A program made the position numbers and the translations under genes. Shown piece after piece: positions 3,604 to 54,287 of a stretch of 61,227 bases of DNA. The number at the start of each line of letters is the position of its first letter. Positions within the stretch are counted from its first letter, which is position 1. The notes below the pieces were generated by a model. It saw only the letters and a program-made list of their open reading frames with translations, was not told where the DNA came from and searched no databases. Source of the stretch: an uncultured Granulosicoccaceae bacterium (GTDB lineage Bacteria; Pseudomonadota; Gammaproteobacteria; Granulosicoccales; Granulosicoccaceae); contig CALIHW010000099.1 in NCBI GenBank assembly GCA_938020525.1, positions 1 through 61,227 on the forward strand, read 5' to 3'.

Positions 3604-3672
3604 GCCCCGGCAAGCTAAGCCGGCAAGCTAAGCCGGCAAGCTAAGCTAGAAGACTTAACCGGAAGACTTAAC
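3592..3672 (+). repeat. tandem short repeat spanning the ftsH stop codon
   Basis: Four copies of the 13-mer CCGGCAAGCTAAG occur at 3592-3604, 3607-3619, 3620-3632 and 3633-3645. The first contains the ftsH TAA stop. They are followed by two copies of GAAGACTTAAC (3649-3659 and 3662-3672) just before the terminator stem. This looks like slippage-type microduplication in the 3' untranslated region. Confidence 0.9.
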
Positions 3673-3697
3673 AAGGCCGCTTTTAGCGGCCTTTTTT
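3673..3697 (+). terminator. rho-independent terminator after ftsH
   Basis: An 8-bp perfect stem AAGGCCGC/GCGGCCTT with loop TTTTA is followed by a T-run. It ends the rlmE-ftsH transcript and separates it from glmM. Confidence 0.92.
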
Positions 3698-3893
3698 AAT
3701 TCGTGCCCTATAATAGTGTACGGCGGGGAAAATCCGCCCACCGATTATTGCGCAAGTAACGGTCAGTGTGACGGTCACTCTGTGCAATTTATCGGATCGC
3801 AATTGGCAGATGTCTGTTTGGTTAAAGCCTTTGCAGTAGGCGAAGACTCCGGCCAACACCCCGATTAATCCGTTGTAACCCCAAGGCAGAATA

Positions 3894-5231
3894 ATGGCGA
3901 GAAAGTATTTCGGTACCGATGGCATGCGTGGTCGAGTTGGTGTTGAGCCGATGACAGCGGCTACAGTTATGAAGCTGGGCTGGGCGGCTGGAAAGGTATT
4001 GGCAAAAGAGGGTAATCGGGACGTGCTGATTGGCAAGGATACTCGTGTATCGGGTTATCTGTTCGAGTCTGCACTGGAAGCCGGTTTGTCTTCTGCTGGT
4101 ATTAATCTCCGATTACTCGGCCCGATGCCGACTCCAGCGGTTGCCTACTTAACCCGCACTTTTCGTGCGGCGGCAGGCATTGTGATCAGTGCCTCGCACA
4201 ATCCTTATTACGATAACGGAGTTAAATTCTTTTCTGCAGAAGGCACCAAGCTGCCGGATTCGATGGAGCAGGAAATCGAAGACATGATGTCGCATGAAAT
4301 GGAAACCGTTGATTCTGCAGATCTTGGACGTGCGCATCGAATCGATGATGCCCCGGGACGTTATATCGAGTTTTGTAAAAGCACATTCCCGACAGGCTTA
4401 AGACTCGACAATATGAAACTGGTGGTTGATTCTGCCAATGGTGCTGCTTACCACATTGCCAAAGGGGTTTTTGAAGAGCTTGGTGCCGAAGTGATAGCGG
4501 TTGGGGCTGAACCTGATGGTCTCAATATTAATCGCGACTGCGGTGCGACTTCCCCTGACTTATTGCGTGCGCATGTTTTAATGGAGCGTGCTGACGTAGG
4601 TGTGGCTTTGGACGGTGATGCTGACCGATTGATTATGGTTGATCATCGAGGTGAAATTGTTGATGGTGATGAGCTGTTATATGTGCTGGTTAAAGCGCGT
4701 CTTGCCAGTGGAGATAAAGTACCCGGTGTTGCTGGTACGCTAATGAGTAACCTTGGACTTGAGCATGGTTTGCGCGAACTCGGGGTTGATTTTGTACGTG
4801 CAAAAGTAGGGGATCGCTACGTCTTGGAAGAGTTGCGTCAGCGGGACTGGATGCTTGGTGGTGAATCTTCTGGTCATATTATTTGTCTGGATAGAACAAC
4901 CACAGGAGACGGGCTGGTTGCAGCTCTGCAGATACTCGCCTACGTGCAGGAATCGGGTGAACCTTTGGCGTCACTTCGAGCCGGTATGACTCGTTATCCG
5001 CAGGTGCTGGTCAATGTACCGCTGAGTCATCGTGAGGCGTTGAACGACAATGCGGTCGTGCAGCAAGCTGTCAAGGACGCTGAGGCTGAGTTAGGTGATA
5101 CAGGTCGTGTGTTATTGCGCCCGTCTGGCACCGAGCCGGTTGTGCGGGTCATGGTTGAAGGTCGTGTCGCGAACGATGTAGAGAAGATTTGTAACCGGGT
5201 TGCCGAGGCGGTTGGCCGTGAGCTTGGATGA
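3894..5231 (+). CDS. glmM: phosphoglucosamine mutase GlmM
   Basis: Converts glucosamine-6-phosphate to glucosamine-1-phosphate in the route to UDP-GlcNAc for peptidoglycan and LPS; cytoplasmic. The 445 residues match GlmM. The phosphoserine motif SASHNP is at 99-104 (Ser101 is the phosphoryl carrier). The metal loop DGDADR is at 240-245, and the phosphate-binding RPSGTEP lies near the C-terminus. The opening [16 protein letters not shown] is characteristic of GlmM rather than ManB/Pgm. It begins about 200 bases after the ftsH terminator, so it has its own transcription start. The usual upstream neighbour folP is missing. Confidence 0.97.
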
Positions 5232-47497: not shown

Positions 47498-47565
47498 TCT
47501 TAACGGGCCATTAAGCCAGCTTGTAAGAAAAAGCCAGACTACGAAAAAAATATTAGGAAAAAATC

Positions 47566-48120
47566 ATGATACGTTCTGAAGTTTTGCGAGAAATCGCACC
47601 GATTATTCGCGATCACCTTGTTGTATGTAATATTGGTCTGCCGAGTCAGGAACTGCACCTGATCGATGATCAGCCGTCAAATTTTTATATGCTTGGCACG
47701 ATGGGTCTGTCTTCATCGATAGGGTTGGGTGTTGCGTTGGCGCAGGATAAGAAAGTAATTTCGATTGATGGTGATGGTTCTGTGCTAACCAACTTTGGCA
47801 CACTGCCAACGATTGCCAATAATGTTGCCGATAACTTTATTTTGTTGGTCATCGATAACGGTAGTTATGGTTCCACTGGTGATCAACCGACTTATGCTGG
47901 CAAAAAGACATCGCTTACTAAAGTGGCAGAAGCATGTGGTTGCGAGAATGTTGTTGAGTGTCAGGCAGAAGAGACACCGCAAGTAATTAAAGATGCACTG
48001 GCAAGTAACAAGATGACCATTATTGTTTGTAAGTGTGAGTCTGGCAATGTGAAGGTGCCTGTGATAACGATGGATCCTGTTTCTATTCGTGATCGGTTTA
48101 TGGGGGTTGTTCAGGCTTAG
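47566..48120 (+). CDS. comE: ThDP-dependent decarboxylase beta subunit, sulfopyruvate decarboxylase-like (ComE)
   Basis: A 184-residue protein equal to the C-terminal (diphosphate-binding) half of the enzyme. The GDG...N ThDP motif is IDGDGSVLTN (about 67-76) with DNGSYGSTG (about 97-105), and GTMGLSSSIGLG lies upstream. It functions with the preceding alpha subunit. Its stop codon is only a few bases from the left boundary repeats of the accessory region, so any further genes of the operon may have been displaced. Confidence 0.8.
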   Translation: MIRSEVLREIAPIIRDHLVVCNIGLPSQELHLIDDQPSNFYMLGTMGLSSSIGLGVALAQDKKVISIDGDGSVLTNFGTLPTIANNVADNFILLVIDNGSYGSTGDQPTYAGKKTSLTKVAEACGCENVVECQAEETPQVIKDALASNKMTIIVCKCESGNVKVPVITMDPVSIRDRFMGVVQA

Positions 48121-48127
48121 CCTTTAA

Positions 48128-48290
48128 TTGCCCTGCGGGCTGGCTAGTTTGTTATGCCTTGCGGGGCTTACTTGTTTGCCCTGCGGGCGGCTTATCGTTC
48201 TTACATGCCCTGCCGGCGGCCCTACTTTTAAAAAGACCAAAAGCGGAATTATGTAGCACTTGCACAAAGCGGTGGCTCCGCGTGAGTTGC
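48128..48290 (-). repeat. left boundary repeat of the accessory region
   Basis: On the minus strand this reads ACCGCTTTGTGCAAGTGCTAC, ATAATTCCG, then GGTCTTTTTAAAAGTAGG, then tandem units of the form GCCGCCGGCAGGGCA (three to four imperfect copies). The tandem part matches 52360-52455 in opposite orientation, and the first part matches the left end of the 50.1-kb repeat. It begins within ten bases of the comE stop. Together with its partner it brackets the accessory region. Confidence 0.85.
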
Positions 48291-48314
48291 CGGTTTTGTG
48301 CGTTGATTTTCGTT

Positions 48315-49058
48315 CTATTTTCCTTTGCGTTCACTTCTGTAGCGGTCGCTAGTTATCCTGCAATCGGGTCTCGCTTGTACAAGCACCCCGTCGTCGTTGG
48401 TTTCTCTGAAAAGAAAGATGGAGAACTCACAAATTCTTCTGTCATTAGGCTTCAGGTCGTCAAATTCGATGGTGCCGTCAAATCGAGCCTCTATGTGGGA
48501 GATTCCCAGAATGTCTTCAGCCCCATAGGTAAAGGCGCTTTCGCTTTCTATCGGGTCTTCGACTTTGAAAGTAACCTCAGTAGGAAAAGCCACAGATTCC
48601 CCGCGACTCAAAAGCTCTTGCTGGGGAGGGTTAGTATTCAAGTTAGACCCATGCAAAAGCCCCATTCTGAAATTCCATATTTTCTCCTCAAGTCCAATAA
48701 GACCCATGAATGGATTAAGTCTGGCTTTCTGCGAGGCGATACCATGCATACTTGTTATTTCAAGTTTAAGGCCGGTTGCTTGCGTCTCGCCGATGTTCTT
48801 TATATCCACTATAAATCGCATAGCAAAATATTCTGGTGGAATATGGGTTTTCACCTTCTGGAGGTCAGCGGAAACAATTTCAAAATATGGCCGAAGGGCG
48901 AGTATATTCGCCTTTTGCGTTTCCGTGAAAGTGGCATCAGCGGCATCAGCGGCATCTTTCATATGCCTGTTGGCTTTTCTCAACAGACAAGCGTTCCACC
49001 AAATAAGACCCAGAGAGAAAAGGAGGAACAAAGCCGAAGCATAAGCGGCATTTTTCAT
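48315..49058 (-). CDS. membrane-anchored hypothetical protein, architecture A
   Basis: I do not recognise a named family. The 247-residue product starts with a membrane segment (about residues 5-27; ASALFLLFSLGLIWWNACLL), then a short Ala/Asp/Thr helix (about 33-50). The motif ALRPYFEI leads into a beta-rich domain containing VDIKNIGETQATGLKLEIT. A strong AGGAAGGA ribosome-binding site lies directly before the ATG. The layout (membrane anchor, helix, arginine-proline-aromatic junction, strand with N-(L/I)-G-x-T) matches the protein at 50631-51722. The opposite strand is open for 341 codons but looks like a shadow. Confidence 0.7.
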   Translation of the reverse strand: MKNAAYASALFLLFSLGLIWWNACLLRKANRHMKDAADAADATFTETQKANILALRPYFEIVSADLQKVKTHIPPEYFAMRFIVDIKNIGETQATGLKLEITSMHGIASQKARLNPFMGLIGLEEKIWNFRMGLLHGSNLNTNPPQQELLSRGESVAFPTEVTFKVEDPIESESAFTYGAEDILGISHIEARFDGTIEFDDLKPNDRRICEFSIFLFRETNDDGVLVQARPDCRITSDRYRSERKGK

Positions 49059-49075
49059 TCCTTCCTGATAATAGA

Positions 49076-49600
49076 GTGGATCGACGCAAGAAAGAAAACC
49101 AAGACCCTGACAAGCGGGTTATTTTGGTTGCTCGTCAGCGTGGCGCTGAAGGTCAGGGCGCGGTTGAAACGGTTGTTGCAGTAGCGAAGTCAGAGAACGA
49201 AGATTCGGCTATGGCGTTCGCTAGAAAGCACGTGGTGAAGTCTGCGACGATTACTACCGATGAGCACGTGAGCTATAACGCTCTGCGAGGTCAATACAAG
49301 GTTGAGCGAGTTAATCACCAGATCAACTACGTTGGGCCAAACGGTGAATCTACAAATCAGGCTGAGTCGTTCTTCTCACGCTTGCGCCGTATGCATATCG
49401 GCCAGACTCATAAGTTTGGCAACAACTACCTTGACCGATATGCGCGTGAGGCTGCATACCGCGAGGACACGCGCCGAAAGCCTAACGGATCAATATTCCA
49501 CGATATTATGGCTCGTTGCGCTCTGCGCCTGCCTTCACGGGACTTTTGTGGGTATTGGCAGGGTAATAAGAAAAATAGCGAGAACTTGCTGACAGCCTAA
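49076..49600 (+). pseudogene. IS1595-type transposase, C-terminal fragment
   Basis: Matches the C-terminal half of ISXO2-like (IS1595 family) DDE transposases. It begins in the DRRKKENQDPDKRVILVARQR region and continues through the DEHVSYNAL, VNHQINYVGPNGESTNQAESFFSRLRR and YLDRYAREAAYREDTRR segments. The N-terminal zinc-ribbon region and the first catalytic Asp are missing; the break is at about 49070, where the promoter region of the hypothetical membrane gene begins. No intact copy or terminal inverted repeats were seen. It is a decayed mobile element. Confidence 0.85.
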
Positions 49601-50043
49601 GTCAGTCGCCAGTGAATAACACCCTGATCGCGATATGCTTCAACTAACCAGCCGCTAACCTCTGCCCGTTTGAGCGTCTTCATTATCGACTTACGAAGCG
49701 CATGTTGTGGATCGTGCTTCATAGCTTCATAGTCAAAGCCCTTAACGATTGCGAGCGCCTGTACGACCTCATTGGTCGATGGTGTTGCACCGTCCGGCAA
49801 ATCTCTGAAGTATTCCCGCAATAGCTGTGGAGCCTCGCCTACGTCAAAGTATCGGTTACGTTGCTTAGAGCGTCTGGCTGATCCCTGTACTGGTACGTCA
49901 TGGTCAGGCTTATAGATTCGTATTGTTGTGTCTAAGGCGCTGAGCGTTGCCTTAGCCTGATCTAGTCCTCTTTGATGATGCGCTAACTTATCAGCTAACT
50001 CTCTGCGTTTTTTCAATAGGCCGGATATGACGTGTTCTGACAT
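49597..50043 (-). CDS. conserved hypothetical protein
   Basis: A 148-residue protein without a named function that I can give. Residues 1-45 form a coiled coil (LLKKRRELADKLAHHQRGLDQAKATLSALDTTIRIY). The motif RRSKQRNRYFDVGEAPQLLREYF leads to a C-terminal region (KRAEVSGWLVEAYRDQGVIHWRL) like a winged helix. Proteins with this layout are frequent on mobile regions. Its 3' end overlaps that of the transposase fragment by four bases. Confidence 0.75.
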   Translation of the reverse strand: MSEHVISGLLKKRRELADKLAHHQRGLDQAKATLSALDTTIRIYKPDHDVPVQGSARRSKQRNRYFDVGEAPQLLREYFRDLPDGATPSTNEVVQALAIVKGFDYEAMKHDPQHALRKSIMKTLKRAEVSGWLVEAYRDQGVIHWRLT

Positions 50044-50108
50044 GAGATTAATCGGTGTATAATCGAATCTCTATTTTAGAGCGGCGACCATCTACCGCTT
50101 TGTGCAAG

Positions 50109-50342
50109 TGCTACATAATTCCGACCAAAAGTAGGCAAAAGTCTTCTTGCTGCTATTTCGCCCTGCGGGTGGCTGCGCCATTTTTTGAAATCATCCTCCG
50201 TCGGGCCGCGCCCATTATTGTCTACTATGGGCAACATCCCTGTGCCGCTAGCGCTCACGTGGCATCCATGCCACTTAGACCCGACTCCGGATAATTTCAA
50301 AAAACAAAACAGAAGCGCGGTAAAAGCGACTAAGTCGCTTTG
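50109..50342 (+). repeat. structured cassette repeat, copy 1
   Basis: A 234-base element repeated at 51768-52002 in the same orientation with five substitutions and one single-base indel. Its core is a large imperfect hairpin with arms TTTTTTGAAATCATCC (50181-50196) and GGATAATTTCAAAAAA (50289-50304), 15 of 16 positions pairing. It contains the inner stems GTGGCAT-CC-ATGCCAC and AGCGACT-A-AGTCGCT, and a CGCTAGCG palindrome. Flanks CCCTGCGGGTGGCTGCGCC (left) and CAAAACAGAAGCGCGGTA (right) recur in copy 3. The far left end resembles the boundary repeat at 48.2 kb. Confidence 0.9.
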
Positions 50343-50431
50343 GTTCGTCTTTACTGTGATGTGTCTGGGTATGATGTGGCCCTCGCTCACGCTTCGGTTT
50401 CACGCCGGTTATACAAGTGTCGAAGACAGCA

Positions 50432-50653
50432 ATGGATGCGGAGTAGAAACACAAGGCCTGGGGATACCCGGCTGCCGTGCTAGCTAGAAAAGGAGTGAAA
50501 CAGACTGATCTTGCGCGTATGCTGGAAGAGGCATACGGGGTAAAGGAAACGCCTCAGACGTTATCGAACAAGATAGGCCGAGGGACTTTTAGTGCGGTCT
50601 TTATGTTCCAGATATTGGATGTGATTAGTTGTGAGCGAGTCGAAATCAGCTGA
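50432..50653 (+). pseudogene. DUF6471-like gene with in-frame stop
   Basis: Reading from ATG 50432, the fifth codon is TAG (50444-50446). The frame then continues as a small XRE-like protein: ARKGVKQTDLARMLEEAYG, then KETPQTLSNKIGRGTFSAVF and FQILDVISCERVEIS. This is the typical DUF6471 pattern and length (about 70 residues). It may be a nonsense-mutated gene, or be expressed from GTG 50477 as a 58-residue product. It overlaps the start of the following membrane-protein gene by 23 bases, so the two were probably coupled. Confidence 0.7.
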
Positions 50654-51722
50654 ATCCAGTAGGACGTTTCTGCGTGTGCTATTTGGGGCAATCGCAATCG
50701 CAGTAGTGGCTTCAATAATTGGGTACATTAATATCGTAAGAAACTATGAGAAGCATTCCTATAACAGCAATAGCTATGTAGATAGTGATCAGTACAGGGA
50801 CTTCCTCTTGGGAGTCCAAACCGCTTGCGATTCTATCGAAGACCATGGCGAGCCATATAAGAAAAATTGTGAAAAGGCCAAACAGGAGATTGCTGAATAC
50901 GTTGGCATATCCGATCTTCGCGCTCAGCAGACGATGGCTTACGCCACTAGGGGAATGTTGGTTGCTTCTTGGTTTCAGTATATGGCCAGCGTTGGTGCTT
51001 TGGCGCTTGTTGCTGTCACTTTGTTTGCTACTTATAGAATGCTGATACAGGCTGCAAATACCGCAAATTACGCCAGGAAGACACTTAGCGCTGCAGAACA
51101 AGCCACTCAAGCAGCCATAAGGACTGTCGATGCCGCTGAGCGAACTGAGCGGCCTTTCCTTTTTACGAAAATAGATTCTTTTGCTAAGGGCGCGGCATCT
51201 CAAATCGATGGCCGATTTTTGCAGCAACCGGGCTTTAGAATAACTCTTCAGAACCTGGGAAAGACTCCAGCAGGAAAAGTAAGAGTCCTTATGCAGTTCG
51301 GTTACGCAAATGGAATTTTGTCTGATACCACTAGCTTCTCCGATGAGGCTGTCCCTGCAATTTCTTATATCCACGCCCTTGATGCTAAAGAAAGCATTTG
51401 TCTTCGTGAGGAAGCGTTGACCACCTTTGGAGCGGAAACACTTGACCGGACTGCGATGGGTAAAATCTATTTGATTGTGGTGTCTTTGAAATATCAAGAT
51501 TTGATTAGAAAAAAAATTGTATGCGATACTAGAGTCCATATAGTTTCGATCCACCAAATCGGAGTTGACGGAAACTCCAAAATTACCCATCGAATGGAGC
51601 AAGAAGACAGAGTTCTGCTTGATTGGTTTAAAAGCAGACGCGATAGATTCTTTGCTGAGAAGCACGAGCAAAAAGATGACGGCAACATATGGGATGGCGC
51701 GCCAGGCTCTTCCAAGGACTAA
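50631..51722 (+). CDS. membrane-anchored hypothetical protein, architecture B
   Basis: No named family recognised. The 363-residue product has two membrane helices (about residues 14-33 and 108-133). Between them lies a hydrophilic, likely periplasmic region with two cysteines (CDSIEDHGEPYKKNC). After the second helix comes a long helix (about 138-172; LSAAEQATQAAIRTVDAAERTERPFLF) and a beta-rich domain with ITLQNLGKTPAGKVRV. The C-terminus is charged. Start GTG, overlapping the DUF6471-like frame. The gene lies exactly between the two direct copies of the structured repeat. Confidence 0.72.
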   Translation: MSESKSAESSRTFLRVLFGAIAIAVVASIIGYINIVRNYEKHSYNSNSYVDSDQYRDFLLGVQTACDSIEDHGEPYKKNCEKAKQEIAEYVGISDLRAQQTMAYATRGMLVASWFQYMASVGALALVAVTLFATYRMLIQAANTANYARKTLSAAEQATQAAIRTVDAAERTERPFLFTKIDSFAKGAASQIDGRFLQQPGFRITLQNLGKTPAGKVRVLMQFGYANGILSDTTSFSDEAVPAISYIHALDAKESICLREEALTTFGAETLDRTAMGKIYLIVVSLKYQDLIRKKIVCDTRVHIVSIHQIGVDGNSKITHRMEQEDRVLLDWFKSRRDRFFAEKHEQKDDGNIWDGAPGSSKD

Positions 51723-51767
51723 TATTTTCAGCCGGCCACTCACAGGGAGCCACCGGCTTGATGCGAC

Positions 51768-52002
51768 TGCTACATAATTCCGACCAAAAGTAGGCAAAAG
51801 TCTTTCTTGCTGCTATTTCGCCCTGCGGGTGGCTGCGCCATTTTTTGAAATCATCCTCCGTCAGGCCGCGCCCATTATTGTCTCCTATGAGCAACATCCC
51901 TGTGCCGCTAGCGCTCACGTGGCATCCATGCCACTTAGGCCCGACTCCAGATAATTTCAAAAAACAAAACAGAAGCGCGGTAAAAGCGACTAAGTCGCTT
52001 TG
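51768..52002 (+). repeat. structured cassette repeat, copy 2
   Basis: Direct repeat of 50109-50342. Arms are TTTTTTGAAATCATCC (51841-51856) and AGATAATTTCAAAAAA (51949-51964). About 20 more bases upstream (GCCACCG...GCTAC) also resemble the left end of the 48.2-kb boundary repeat in its minus orientation. Copies 1 and 2 differ in five bases and one indel, so the duplication is recent or kept homogeneous. Confidence 0.9.
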
Positions 52003-52175
52003 ATTTGTTTTTGTTTGTAGAGCTGAGTTAAACGGATAGTGTTTTGCTGTTTGATAAGCGTTGATATCCCTGACTCCCGCTTCCCTCTTCTGAGGTTTCC
52101 TCCGACGATCATGCTTTATATCGTTGGTGCAGCGTTAGTATGGCTGTGGGTGTTTTTGTGTTTTTGTTTTGCAGT

Positions 52176-52365
52176 ACCGCGCTTCTGTTTTGTTTTGAAT
52201 TTCATCGTGGAGACAGGCAAAAGCGGCAGGACGCCGCGTTAGCGAAGTTGGCACATGGATGTGCTATCTGAGCGTGCCTGTTGGAGCGATGAAATTCAAA
52301 ATGCCGCAGGCACCCGCAGGGCAAAATGGCAGCAAGAAAGACTTTTTGCTTACTTTTCGGTCTTT
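52176..52365 (-). repeat. structured cassette repeat, copy 3 (inverted and diverged)
   Basis: In reverse orientation to copies 1 and 2. The arms TTTTGAATTTCATCG (52193-52207) and CGATGAAATTCAAAA (52287-52301) pair perfectly over 15 bp although their sequence differs from copies 1 and 2. Inside are ACAGGCA/TGCCTGT and GCACAT-CC-ATGTGC stems, the latter equivalent to GTGGCAT-CC-ATGCCAC in copy 1. The flanks match the other copies: CGCGCTTCTGTTTTG before and CCCGCAGGGCAAAATGGCAG after, on the plus strand. Confidence 0.85.
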
Positions 52366-52455
52366 TCAAAAAATAAGGCCGCCGGCAGGGCATGCAAGAG
52401 CGATAAGCCGCCGGCAGGCAAGTCACACAAGTAAGCCGCCGGCAGGGCAACAAAA
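52366..52455 (+). repeat. right boundary repeat of the accessory region
   Basis: Tandem imperfect units of AAGCCGCCGGCAGGGCA (three copies) follow TTTTCAAAAAATAAGG. The whole stretch matches the reverse complement of 48146-48240, so it forms an inverted pair with the left boundary. It ends about ten bases from the 3' end of the retropepsin gene. The units contain GCCGGC palindromes. Confidence 0.85.
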
Positions 52456-52463
52456 ACCAAAAA

Positions 52464-52988
52464 TTAAGGCTCCCGAATAATGAGCTGTTCACCTCGTTGC
52501 ACCAGCTCGTAGTGCTTCAATACACTCATACCTAATAAAACCTCATCGCTAAGACCGGGGTTGATGTGAGCGGTTGCGTTACGAATCTCAAGATCCCCGA
52601 TACGCAGCTGATCAACTTTTGTGGTGTACGCGATGCTTCTGCCGTTGGCGGTGTTGATGGGGATCTCGGAGCCGCGCGAAAGGCCGGCACGAAATGCGAC
52701 ATCCTCCGGAATGCTGACACTGGTAGCGCCGGTATCAACCAGAAAATCTGCTTTCGCTCCATTGATGGTGCCGGTTAAACGATAGTGTCCGTATCGACCG
52801 CGCTGCAGCGTGATGCTCCGTTTATCGCCAGTAATGGAGGTGACGATCTTGTTGTTCGGATTGCGCTGTTTTTCCAGGTAGTTATTTACCAGCAGGGTGC
52901 CAAGCGCAAGTCCCACAACCCAGATGCCGACGATCATGTACTGACCTATCCGGGTTTCATCGTCCTTTGCGTTTTCGTTGTTATCCAA
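52464..52988 (-). CDS. retropepsin-like aspartic protease, membrane-anchored
   Basis: A 174-residue protein of the bacterial clan AA (TIGR02281-type) family. An N-terminal membrane anchor (about residues 17-36) precedes a retropepsin domain with the active-site motif FLVDTGATSVSIP and a C-terminal LLGMSVLKHYEL. One aspartate per chain implies that a dimer forms the active site. Substrates of this family are poorly known. Its 3' end adjoins the right boundary repeat. Confidence 0.88.
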   Translation of the reverse strand: MDNNENAKDDETRIGQYMIVGIWVVGLALGTLLVNNYLEKQRNPNNKIVTSITGDKRSITLQRGRYGHYRLTGTINGAKADFLVDTGATSVSIPEDVAFRAGLSRGSEIPINTANGRSIAYTTKVDQLRIGDLEIRNATAHINPGLSDEVLLGMSVLKHYELVQRGEQLIIREP

Positions 52989-53207
52989 TGTGTGGGCCTG
53001 CTGTTTGTTAGCGACTGCGGTTTGTTGCCTGAGTATAGTGAGGGATTCTGGCCGGGTAGGGAGTGTTGCAGCTAGTCTACTGCATCACACACTGTCCATT
53101 GTCGATAGTTTGAATCGGGTCGATACTTTGAAACGGCCCCCTGGATTGGTTAAAGCAGATACAATACCGGGCTGTAGCTCATTCGCGATTCTCAGGACCA
53201 TTTAGAG

Positions 53208-54287
53208 ATGTCCGGCAATACATTTGGCAAGCTGTTTACATTGACAACTTTTGGCGAAAGCCACGGTCCCGCGATTGGTGCGGTGGTAGATGGCTGTCCC
53301 CCGGGTCTGGCGTTGTCAGAGGTAGATTTGCAGGGCGATCTGGATCGACGTAAACCCGGCCAGTCACGCTATACCACGCAGCGAAAAGAAGATGATGTGG
53401 TGAAAATTCTTTCGGGTGTTTTTGAAGGCAAGACAACTGGAACACCCATCGGATTGTTGATAGAGAACACAGATCAACGTTCAAAGGACTACAGCAAGAT
53501 CAAAGATTTGTTCCGTCCGGCTCACGCTGATCTAACCTATCAGAAAAAATACGGTATACGTGATTACCGCGGTGGTGGCCGATCTTCTGCACGCGAAACC
53601 GCTATGCGGGTGGCTGCAGGCGGGATAGCAAAAAAATACTTAAGAGAAGAGTTTGGTGTCGAGATTAGAGGATACCTGTCACAGCTTGGCTCAGTGACAC
53701 TCGATGAATCGCAGTTCGACTGGAATGAAGTTGGTACCAACGCTTTTTTCTGGCCTAACGCTTCTCAGGTTGATGAGCTTGAATCTTTCATGCAAGCACT
53801 AACAAAAGACGGTGACTCAGCTGGTGCAAGAGTTAACGTTGTTGCTTCCGGATTGCCCGTGGGATGGGGGGAGCCGATTTTTGATAGACTCGACGCTGAT
53901 ATCGCGCATGCCCTGATGAGTATTGGCGCCGTCAAAGGCGTCGAAATTGGTGCCGGTTTTCAGAGCGTGGCTCAAAAAGGTAGTGAGCATAGGGATGAAA
54001 TTTCCCCGCAGGGTTTTTTGTCTAATAATGCCGGTGGAATATTAGGTGGTATCAGTTCGGGGCAGGATGTACTGGCTTCAATTGCGTTAAAGCCAACATC
54101 GAGTTTAAGGCTGCCGGGGCAGACCGTTGACGTTAATAACGAAGCGCAGGAAGTTATAACTACCGGCAGACATGATCCCTGTGTTGGAATTCGCGCGACG
54201 CCGATTGCCGAGGCAATGATGGCGCTTGTGTTAATCGATCATTGCCTGCGCGATCGTGCGCAGAATTCGAAAGTTGATCGAACTTAG
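53208..54287 (+). CDS. aroC: chorismate synthase
   Basis: Last enzyme of the shikimate pathway; makes chorismate from 5-enolpyruvylshikimate-3-phosphate with reduced FMN. It has 359 residues. Signatures are [18 protein letters not shown] (about 12-29), the [29 protein letters not shown] region (starting [18 protein letters not shown]), and [19 protein letters not shown]. The start codon ATG follows TTTAGAG. A single-gene unit here. Confidence 0.97.

Follow-up and report, generated by a model that had tools for sequence, protein, structure and literature searches.

A 61,227-nt stretch of contig CALIHW010000099.1 (positions 1 to 61,227) of an uncultured Granulosicoccaceae bacterium (GenBank assembly GCA_938020525.1), hereafter referred to as the window, contains three copies of a structured repeat that fold like TwoAYGGAY RNAs, one of which (copy 3) passes the Rfam cut-off for that family. 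The repeat nearly always presents GGA in its hairpin loops, and does so in a strand-specific manner, and we predict that such GGA-loop repeats probably bind and titrate CsrA as multi-copy RNA decoys.

The TwoAYGGAY fold and its covariation

Covariance model R1 found the cores of the three repeats where a first-pass annotation of the sequence had reported them. Copy 1 (50159-50307, minus strand, 120.3 bits) is a TwoAYGGAY-like RNA with stems P1 and P2, hairpin H1, an altered H2, and two mini-hairpins; copy 2 (51819-51967, minus strand, 117.8 bits) is likewise TwoAYGGAY-like and forms the A-type arm of a divergent twin; and copy 3 (52190-52323, plus strand, 131.9 bits) is a TwoAYGGAY RNA and the B-type arm of this twin. 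Window sequence comparison identified copies 1 and 2 as direct repeats with 96% identity over 209 nt, and copy 3 as inverted relative to both, with 75% identity to copy 2. The annotation had assigned the repeats to no named family, a statement that no longer holds: copy 3 belongs to Rfam RF01731 (TwoAYGGAY; 52175-52316, plus strand, 44.8 bits versus a cut-off of 43), the single Rfam match at an E value of ≤1 within 47500-54000. It is the only one of the window's three copies to reach this cut-off, and copies 1 and 2 have the same fold despite lacking an Rfam match. Rfam clan CL00106 holds both RF01731 and CsrB (RF00018), with E. coli csrB as the control.

Along the GGA strand, the element starts with the outer stem P1 (15 model pairs), followed by a GGA/GGA internal loop and stem P2; beyond P2 lies a junction bearing H1 and H2, and then the two mini-hairpins. 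In copy 3, P1 pairs 52194-52208 with 52286-52300, H1 (loop CAGGACG) occupies 52223-52237, and H2 (loop CAUGGAUG) spans 52242-52273, all on the plus strand, whereas the mini-hairpins read TGCC-GCA-GGCA and CCC-GCA-GGG. The hairpin arms differ in sequence between copies yet stay complementary, as initially noticed: copy 3 pairs TTTGAATTTCATCGT with GCGATGAAATTCAAA, and copies 1 and 2 pair TTTTTGAAATTATCC/T with GGATGATTTCAAAAA. In the inner stem noted there, GTGGCAT-CC-ATGCCAC, the "CC" corresponds to the AUGGAU loop motif in reverse, because copies 1 and 2 have their GGA strand on the minus strand. When the GGA-strand RNAs were folded, none of 200 dinucleotide shuffles folded as stably as any of the copies (z-scores of -6.1, -4.6, and -4.3 for copies 3, 1, and 2, respectively), and the folding energy of copy 3 was -63.7 kcal/mol on the plus strand versus -52.8 kcal/mol on the minus strand.

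Covariation is far above chance. Among 16 copies from the own genome (G000), aligned without two partial ones (C20 and the start of C218), 95.1% of the base-pair cells were paired and 23 of 46 pairs had changed on both sides, compared with 16.9 in shuffled and 3 to 6 in slid controls; P1 alone contributed 11 of its 15 pairs. A larger alignment of 81 copies from six genomes, which was fitted to the structure and is hence biased in its favor, gave 95.6% paired cells and showed change on both sides in 30 of 46 pairs (shuffled, 23.0; slid, 8 to 12). These copies (31 from G003, 16 from G000, 14 from G012, 9 from G005, 7 from G006, and 4 from G001) came from stretches picked among the matches listed, some for a visible pair, and were retained from 92 matches after a stricter cut had removed 11 weak, antisense, or cut ones. 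GGA is present on the 5′ side of the internal loop in 72 of the 81 copies and on the 3′ side in 69. A further, distant family, f158, in which 27 RF01731 matches in 15 loci yielded 18 copies upon exclusion of nine partial ones, adopts a like fold in a MAFFT alignment, where 22 of 44 predicted pairs differ at both positions. The proposal that the folded form matters is supported by both the 16- and the 81-copy sets. The choice between RNA and single-stranded DNA, left open at that stage, becomes smaller on the pairing data: the 81 copies have 156 G-U cells (at 29 of 46 pair positions) versus 15 A-C cells (11 of 46), a ratio that would reverse if the structure were selected on the opposite strand. 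Together with the strand-specific loop motif, this excess favors an RNA of the GGA strand.

GGA loops and predicted titration of CsrA

Both core hairpins keep GGA in the loop while their stems vary (H1, 78 of the 81 copies; H2, 79 of 81). The commonest H1/H2 loops are CAUGGAUG, CAGGGAUG, or CAGGACG; many loops of the AYGGAY type are AUGGAU, others being AGGGAU or AGGAC, and across copies they stay near CAnGGAnG. The mini-hairpins, which served as controls, mostly have GCA, GAA, or GUA loops. CAnGGAnG occurs 134 times in sense and 0 times in antisense orientation in the 81 cores, and ACARGGAUGU is found in 32 of these cores in sense and in none in antisense; within the window, the latter motif has no occurrence on either strand outside 50001-52500. 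A SELEX (systematic evolution of ligands by exponential enrichment) study of CsrA gives the consensus RUACARGGAUGU, with the core ACARGGAUGU, and reports that 51 of the 55 RNAs selected had GGA within a hairpin loop (PMC7652899). Downstream of the mini-hairpins lies a T-/A-rich region, to which many copies add a tail made up of short hairpins and tandem arrays. Hairpins in 76 such tails carried GGA in 36 of 167 loops and TCC in 5, compared with 21 and 19 of 657, respectively, in 400 control stretches. A csrA gene was identified in the four genomes searched (G000, G003, G012, and G011), and the element displays a sponge-like trait, i.e., several GGA hairpin loops on one strand. CsrB itself (RF00018) gave no match at an E value of ≤0.001 in four genomes of the genus, a search that did not cover the RsmY/Z families.

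In the mechanism that we propose, the arms would be transcribed outward, either from the spacer between them or via read-through, and each GGA-strand RNA would capture CsrA dimers on its hairpins in a CsrB-like manner. The summed copies would then determine the level of free CsrA, acting on balance as a sponge. As each intact copy has two GGA hairpins in its core, the 18 matches in the own genome would provide approximately 30 to 40 core sites, to which the GGA hairpins of the tails would add further ones; CsrB has about 18 CsrA sites. Should this hold, a spreading repeat, instead of a few dedicated small RNA (sRNA) genes, would tune Csr regulation globally.

Divergent twins dispersed between genes, and how else they may be explained

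A search of the host genome and its relatives with the covariance model, as suggested by the first-pass annotation, gave matches in 13 of 14 genus genomes, that of the host among them, with 5 to 63 matches each, 63 being an upper value because opposite-strand re-hits are included; G011 had none. The own genome accounted for 18 matches and G003 for 47. Beyond the genus, the model matched 3 of 11 additional genomes from the family and 2 of 15 additional ones from the class. All these genomes are drafts, some 77 to 90% complete, the own one being 93% complete. RF01731 matched at least 24 of 369 gammaproteobacterial genomes, as counted from the best seven or fewer candidates per genome (six genomes reached seven). 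Many copies next to unrelated genes, which the annotation had set as a sign of a cassette-attachment site, do exist, but we read them as an RNA repeat that is dispersed. In named genomes, a pattern scan returned 59 stretches, 55 of them from Granulosicoccaceae or Granulosicoccus; the other four (L134, L146, L152, and L156) derive from Sulfitobacter, two Chromatiales metagenome-assembled genome (MAG) contigs, and a Melainabacteria MAG. A phage or plasmid origin was discarded upon blastn searches without a match (one query each) and the absence of the pattern from viral contigs.

Occupancy differs between related genomes. The tgt-yajC gap measures 69 to 281 nt in 11 element-free genomes, 539 nt in G000, where it holds one copy, and 1023 nt in G003, where it holds a twin; it is filled in 2 of 13 genomes, G013 having given no yajC match. 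Within 1.5 kb of aroC, strong matches occur in G000 only, among 14 genomes. These filled/empty differences indicate that both sites are polymorphic between species. The tgt-yajC site (L213, intergenic) also holds 12-nt tandem arrays. Near aroC, G010 has a weak match (L209:457-606, 25 bits) that is perhaps a decayed copy.

Some copies form outward-facing twins. Among 57 sampled Granulosicoccaceae sites, 16 had a minus copy followed by a plus copy ("-+") within 900 nt and none the converse ("+-"), with 6 tandem and 35 single sites. As read from arm sequence, 10 of these 16 twins consist of one A arm and one B arm, whichever way the twin as a whole points, whereas the arms of the remaining 6 are like but non-identical. 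Blocks of the spacer are shared between units; in the window, the spacer that runs from the 5′ end of copy 2 to that of copy 3 (51968-52189, unstranded) contains the palindrome AAAGCGACTAAGTCGCTTT and blocks common to other A/B twins. The 15 f158 loci include 10 "-+" twins, one wide "-+" pair, and three single matches. Their units align over ∼570 to 820 nt with 74 to 87% identity in one orientation and 65 to 69% in the other, which implies an asymmetric unit with two unlike arms. Such a twin would spread as a single non-autonomous unit.

Several further features accompany these units. In the window, short repeats built on GCCGCCGGCAGGGCA lie downstream of copy 3 (52366-52449, plus strand), and similar arrays occur 3′ of other units. 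At ∼52330-52382 and at the equivalent place elsewhere, two overlapping hairpins follow the core (in C125, for example, AAAAACAC/GTGTTTTT and CTACTTTT/AAAAGTAG); they may be mutually exclusive, as in a switch or a pseudoknot. Variable microsatellites, such as (AAAAGAT)n and (CAATAAAA)n, are found in the spacers of twins L220, L217, L225, and L230. At locus L249, three copies on the minus strand and three on the plus strand are arrayed as mirror images around a 1.6-kb cargo region. An autonomous version of the element was considered and rejected, since inspection by eye of the wider pairs L275, L250, and L249 pointed to cargo or unrelated genes, with no systematic search made. The open reading frame (ORF) at 91-951 beside the first copy of L275 resembles an IS3-type transposase by eye; L250:3877-4581, between copies, encodes an Abi-like protein (PF07751, 23.5 bits, just under the cut-off); and L057:796-1014 and 1096-1802, also between copies, encode an Abi-like relative, as judged by eye, and a cold-shock domain protein.

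A number of observations weigh against the prediction of CsrA-binding RNA decoys. Regarding family membership, copies 1 and 2 gave no RF01731 or other Rfam match at an E value of ≤1 within 47500-54000, and copy 3 is absent from the listing of a whole-genome RF01731 search, which may use other filters than the window search and listed five other places in the own genome (one over the cut-off and four below). The minus strand of copy 3 likewise beats its shuffles (z-score of -5.2), and the G-U cells may equally reflect G-T pairs formed by the GGA strand as single-stranded DNA. Copies are related, so all copy counts are non-independent, and opposite-strand re-hits of one copy inflate some match counts, mainly in G012. 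As for the loops, H2 is altered in copies 1 and 2, where a 15-nt insertion changes its far (3′) side, and in the 18 aligned f158 copies GGA is kept in H1 throughout (18 of 18) but replaced by CGA in 6 of the 18 H2 loops, which weakens the case for CsrA in this family. Promoter scans of three twins returned 1, 1, and 0 weak hits, a shuffle-like level at which a promoter within the spacer was dropped as a candidate. Finally, single copies between codirectional genes lie in sense in 8 cases and in antisense in 7, one of the 15 f158 loci (L284) is convergent ("+-"), and no target-site duplication of the unit was seen in the own genus.

The same features can be read as those of miniature inverted-repeat transposable elements (MITEs) or fold-back repeats, whose structure would serve DNA transposition or replication, the GGA loops being transposase-binding signals and any RNA role incidental. 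We regard this explanation as rather unlikely. It would fit the dispersal of the repeats, their inverted twins and polymorphic sites, the outer ends of f158 units, which resemble inverted repeats by eye, the f158 site that looked empty but by eye bears the scar of an internal deletion, and the H2 loops of f158 that have lost GGA. The 156-to-15 excess of G-U over A-C cells and the recurrence of strand-specific GGA in the tail hairpins argue against it, and so do the clan shared with CsrB, the absence of a visible target-site duplication in the genus, and the lack of a Y1 (RAYT-type; RAYT, REP-associated tyrosine transposase) enzyme in 7 of 14 genus genomes, the own one included, other transposase families not having been tested. 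A second rival explanation, that the copies are repetitive extragenic palindromic (REP) sequences or bacterial interspersed mosaic elements (BIMEs) mobilized by a Y1 HUH transposase of the RAYT type, or else cassette sites like attC, is very improbable. Inverted pairs do lie between genes, some tails have CGTAG beside a short hairpin, and a Y1 match (PF01797) is present in 7 of the 14 genomes; nonetheless, PF01797 has no match in the own draft genome, contrary to the REP-like substrate initially suggested, nor in G003 with its 47 element matches, whereas G011, the genome richest in Y1 matches (14), has 0 element matches. The core of ∼134 nt plus tail is also far larger than REPs are. A cassette-attachment site is not supported: the tgt-yajC copies have no cassette, and although copies 1 and 2 and those of L249 do flank cargo genes, they do so beside IS1595-type ends (see below); an integron integrase was not searched for.

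Extragenic terminators or mRNA-stabilizing hairpins downstream of genes are an improbable alternative too. The 38 sites with both neighbors resolved comprise 15 convergent, 22 codirectional, and 1 divergent gene pairs, neighbors being crude longest ORFs with those crossing an element excluded by the method, and three twins gave more terminator-like hits (5, 3, and 5) than their shuffles did (1.3, 1.9, and 1.6). Terminators leave the kept GGA loops unexplained, and the near-even split of single codirectional copies between sense and antisense argues against them; a module of 3′ untranslated regions was rejected for this lack of sense preference. RNA decoys for CsrA remain our preferred reading. 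A more far-reaching possibility, which we rate as less likely than not, is a mobile decoy: a non-autonomous transposable repeat that encodes two divergent sponge RNAs and spreads between gammaproteobacterial genes, its copy number setting free CsrA, as either a host-rewiring parasite or a domesticated, distributed replacement of CsrB/RsmZ.

IS1595-type insertions at the repeat and comparison with known systems

The element of copy 1 is split by an IS1595-type insertion (48244-50123, unstranded); its orthologous element in G003 is uninterrupted. This insertion has 30-bp terminal inverted repeats (48244-48273 and 50094-50123), an 8-bp duplication ACCAAAAG on the left (48236-48243) and right (50124-50131), and a gene for a partial ISXO2/IS1595 transposase (49076-49600, plus strand; PF12762, 1.2e-29, profile positions 26-153 of 153), all as expected for the IS1595 family, in which 8 bp is the usual duplication length. 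A second IS1595-type right end adjoins copy 2 (51768-51782, unstranded) and is followed by ACCAAAAG (51783-51790), but no left partner of this end was found. The flanks described as shared by the repeats are consequently of two kinds: the repeats themselves are shared, whereas 50109-50123 and 51768-51782 are insertion ends, which explain part of the shared flanks and the gene-boundary look of copies 1 and 2. A third such end adjoins a copy in G005 (L249:4858, minus strand). Three separate repeat copies from two species therefore have an IS1595-type end at an identical position (GACCAAAAG/A), which suggests that these insertions prefer the repeat as a target. The cargo between copies 1 and 2 consists of a DUF6471 small protein (50480-50653, plus strand; PF20075, 1.4e-17; start codon ambiguous) and a 363-aa probable membrane protein (50631-51722, plus strand), an ORF with no Pfam family over the cut-off. 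A relative of the latter with 26% identity adjoins a similar insertion end in G005, and the pair of DUF6471 and probable membrane proteins recurs as cargo at L249 ∼3655-4761, i.e., in two species.

The TwoAYGGAY family itself is already known. In the portions available to us, a 2010 paper presents it as a candidate, probably an RNA, from the human gut, gammaproteobacteria, and Clostridiales (PMC2864571), and a 2014 paper notes its tandem GAs and proposes, from motif matches, that its loops bind CsrA (PMC4333381); the 2014 paper and a 2025 one leave its function open in those portions, which describe no repeat. We did not find a dispersed, twinned, repeat-like form of TwoAYGGAY in the open-licence literature, nor a description of covarying stems with constant GGA loops in such repeats or of IS1595-type ends as part of their flanks. 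A multi-copy, strand-specific, GGA-looped repeat gives this family a concrete, testable function, CsrA titration, for which related species with 0 to 63 matches constitute a natural experiment.

Compared with TwoAYGGAY as described, the element has the same two GGA-loop hairpins, long closing stem, and GA-rich internal loop, but Rfam types the family as cis-regulatory, whereas here it is a dispersed multi-copy repeat, partly twinned and with extra GGA hairpins downstream. Like CsrB/CsrC and RsmX/Y/Z, it has numerous GGA hairpins on a single strand of RNA, and CsrB belongs to the same clan. Those sRNAs have few dedicated genes per genome, in contrast to the 5 to 63 matches in 13 of 14 genomes; RF00018 has no match in the four genus genomes searched for it. 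The IS1595 element with passenger genes at 48244-50123, recognizable by its PF12762 transposase, inverted ends, and 8-bp duplication, interrupts copy 1 and is not the repeat itself. With REPs and BIMEs, the element shares its extragenic, dispersed, palindromic nature and inverted pairs, from which it differs in its far larger size, its strand-specific RNA-type covariation, and the own genome without a Y1 match. MITEs, of which ERIC (enterobacterial repetitive intergenic consensus) is one, are likewise structured intergenic repeats of non-autonomous appearance; the element departs from them in having two related RNA arms per unit, CsrA-type loops, and no duplication seen in the genus.

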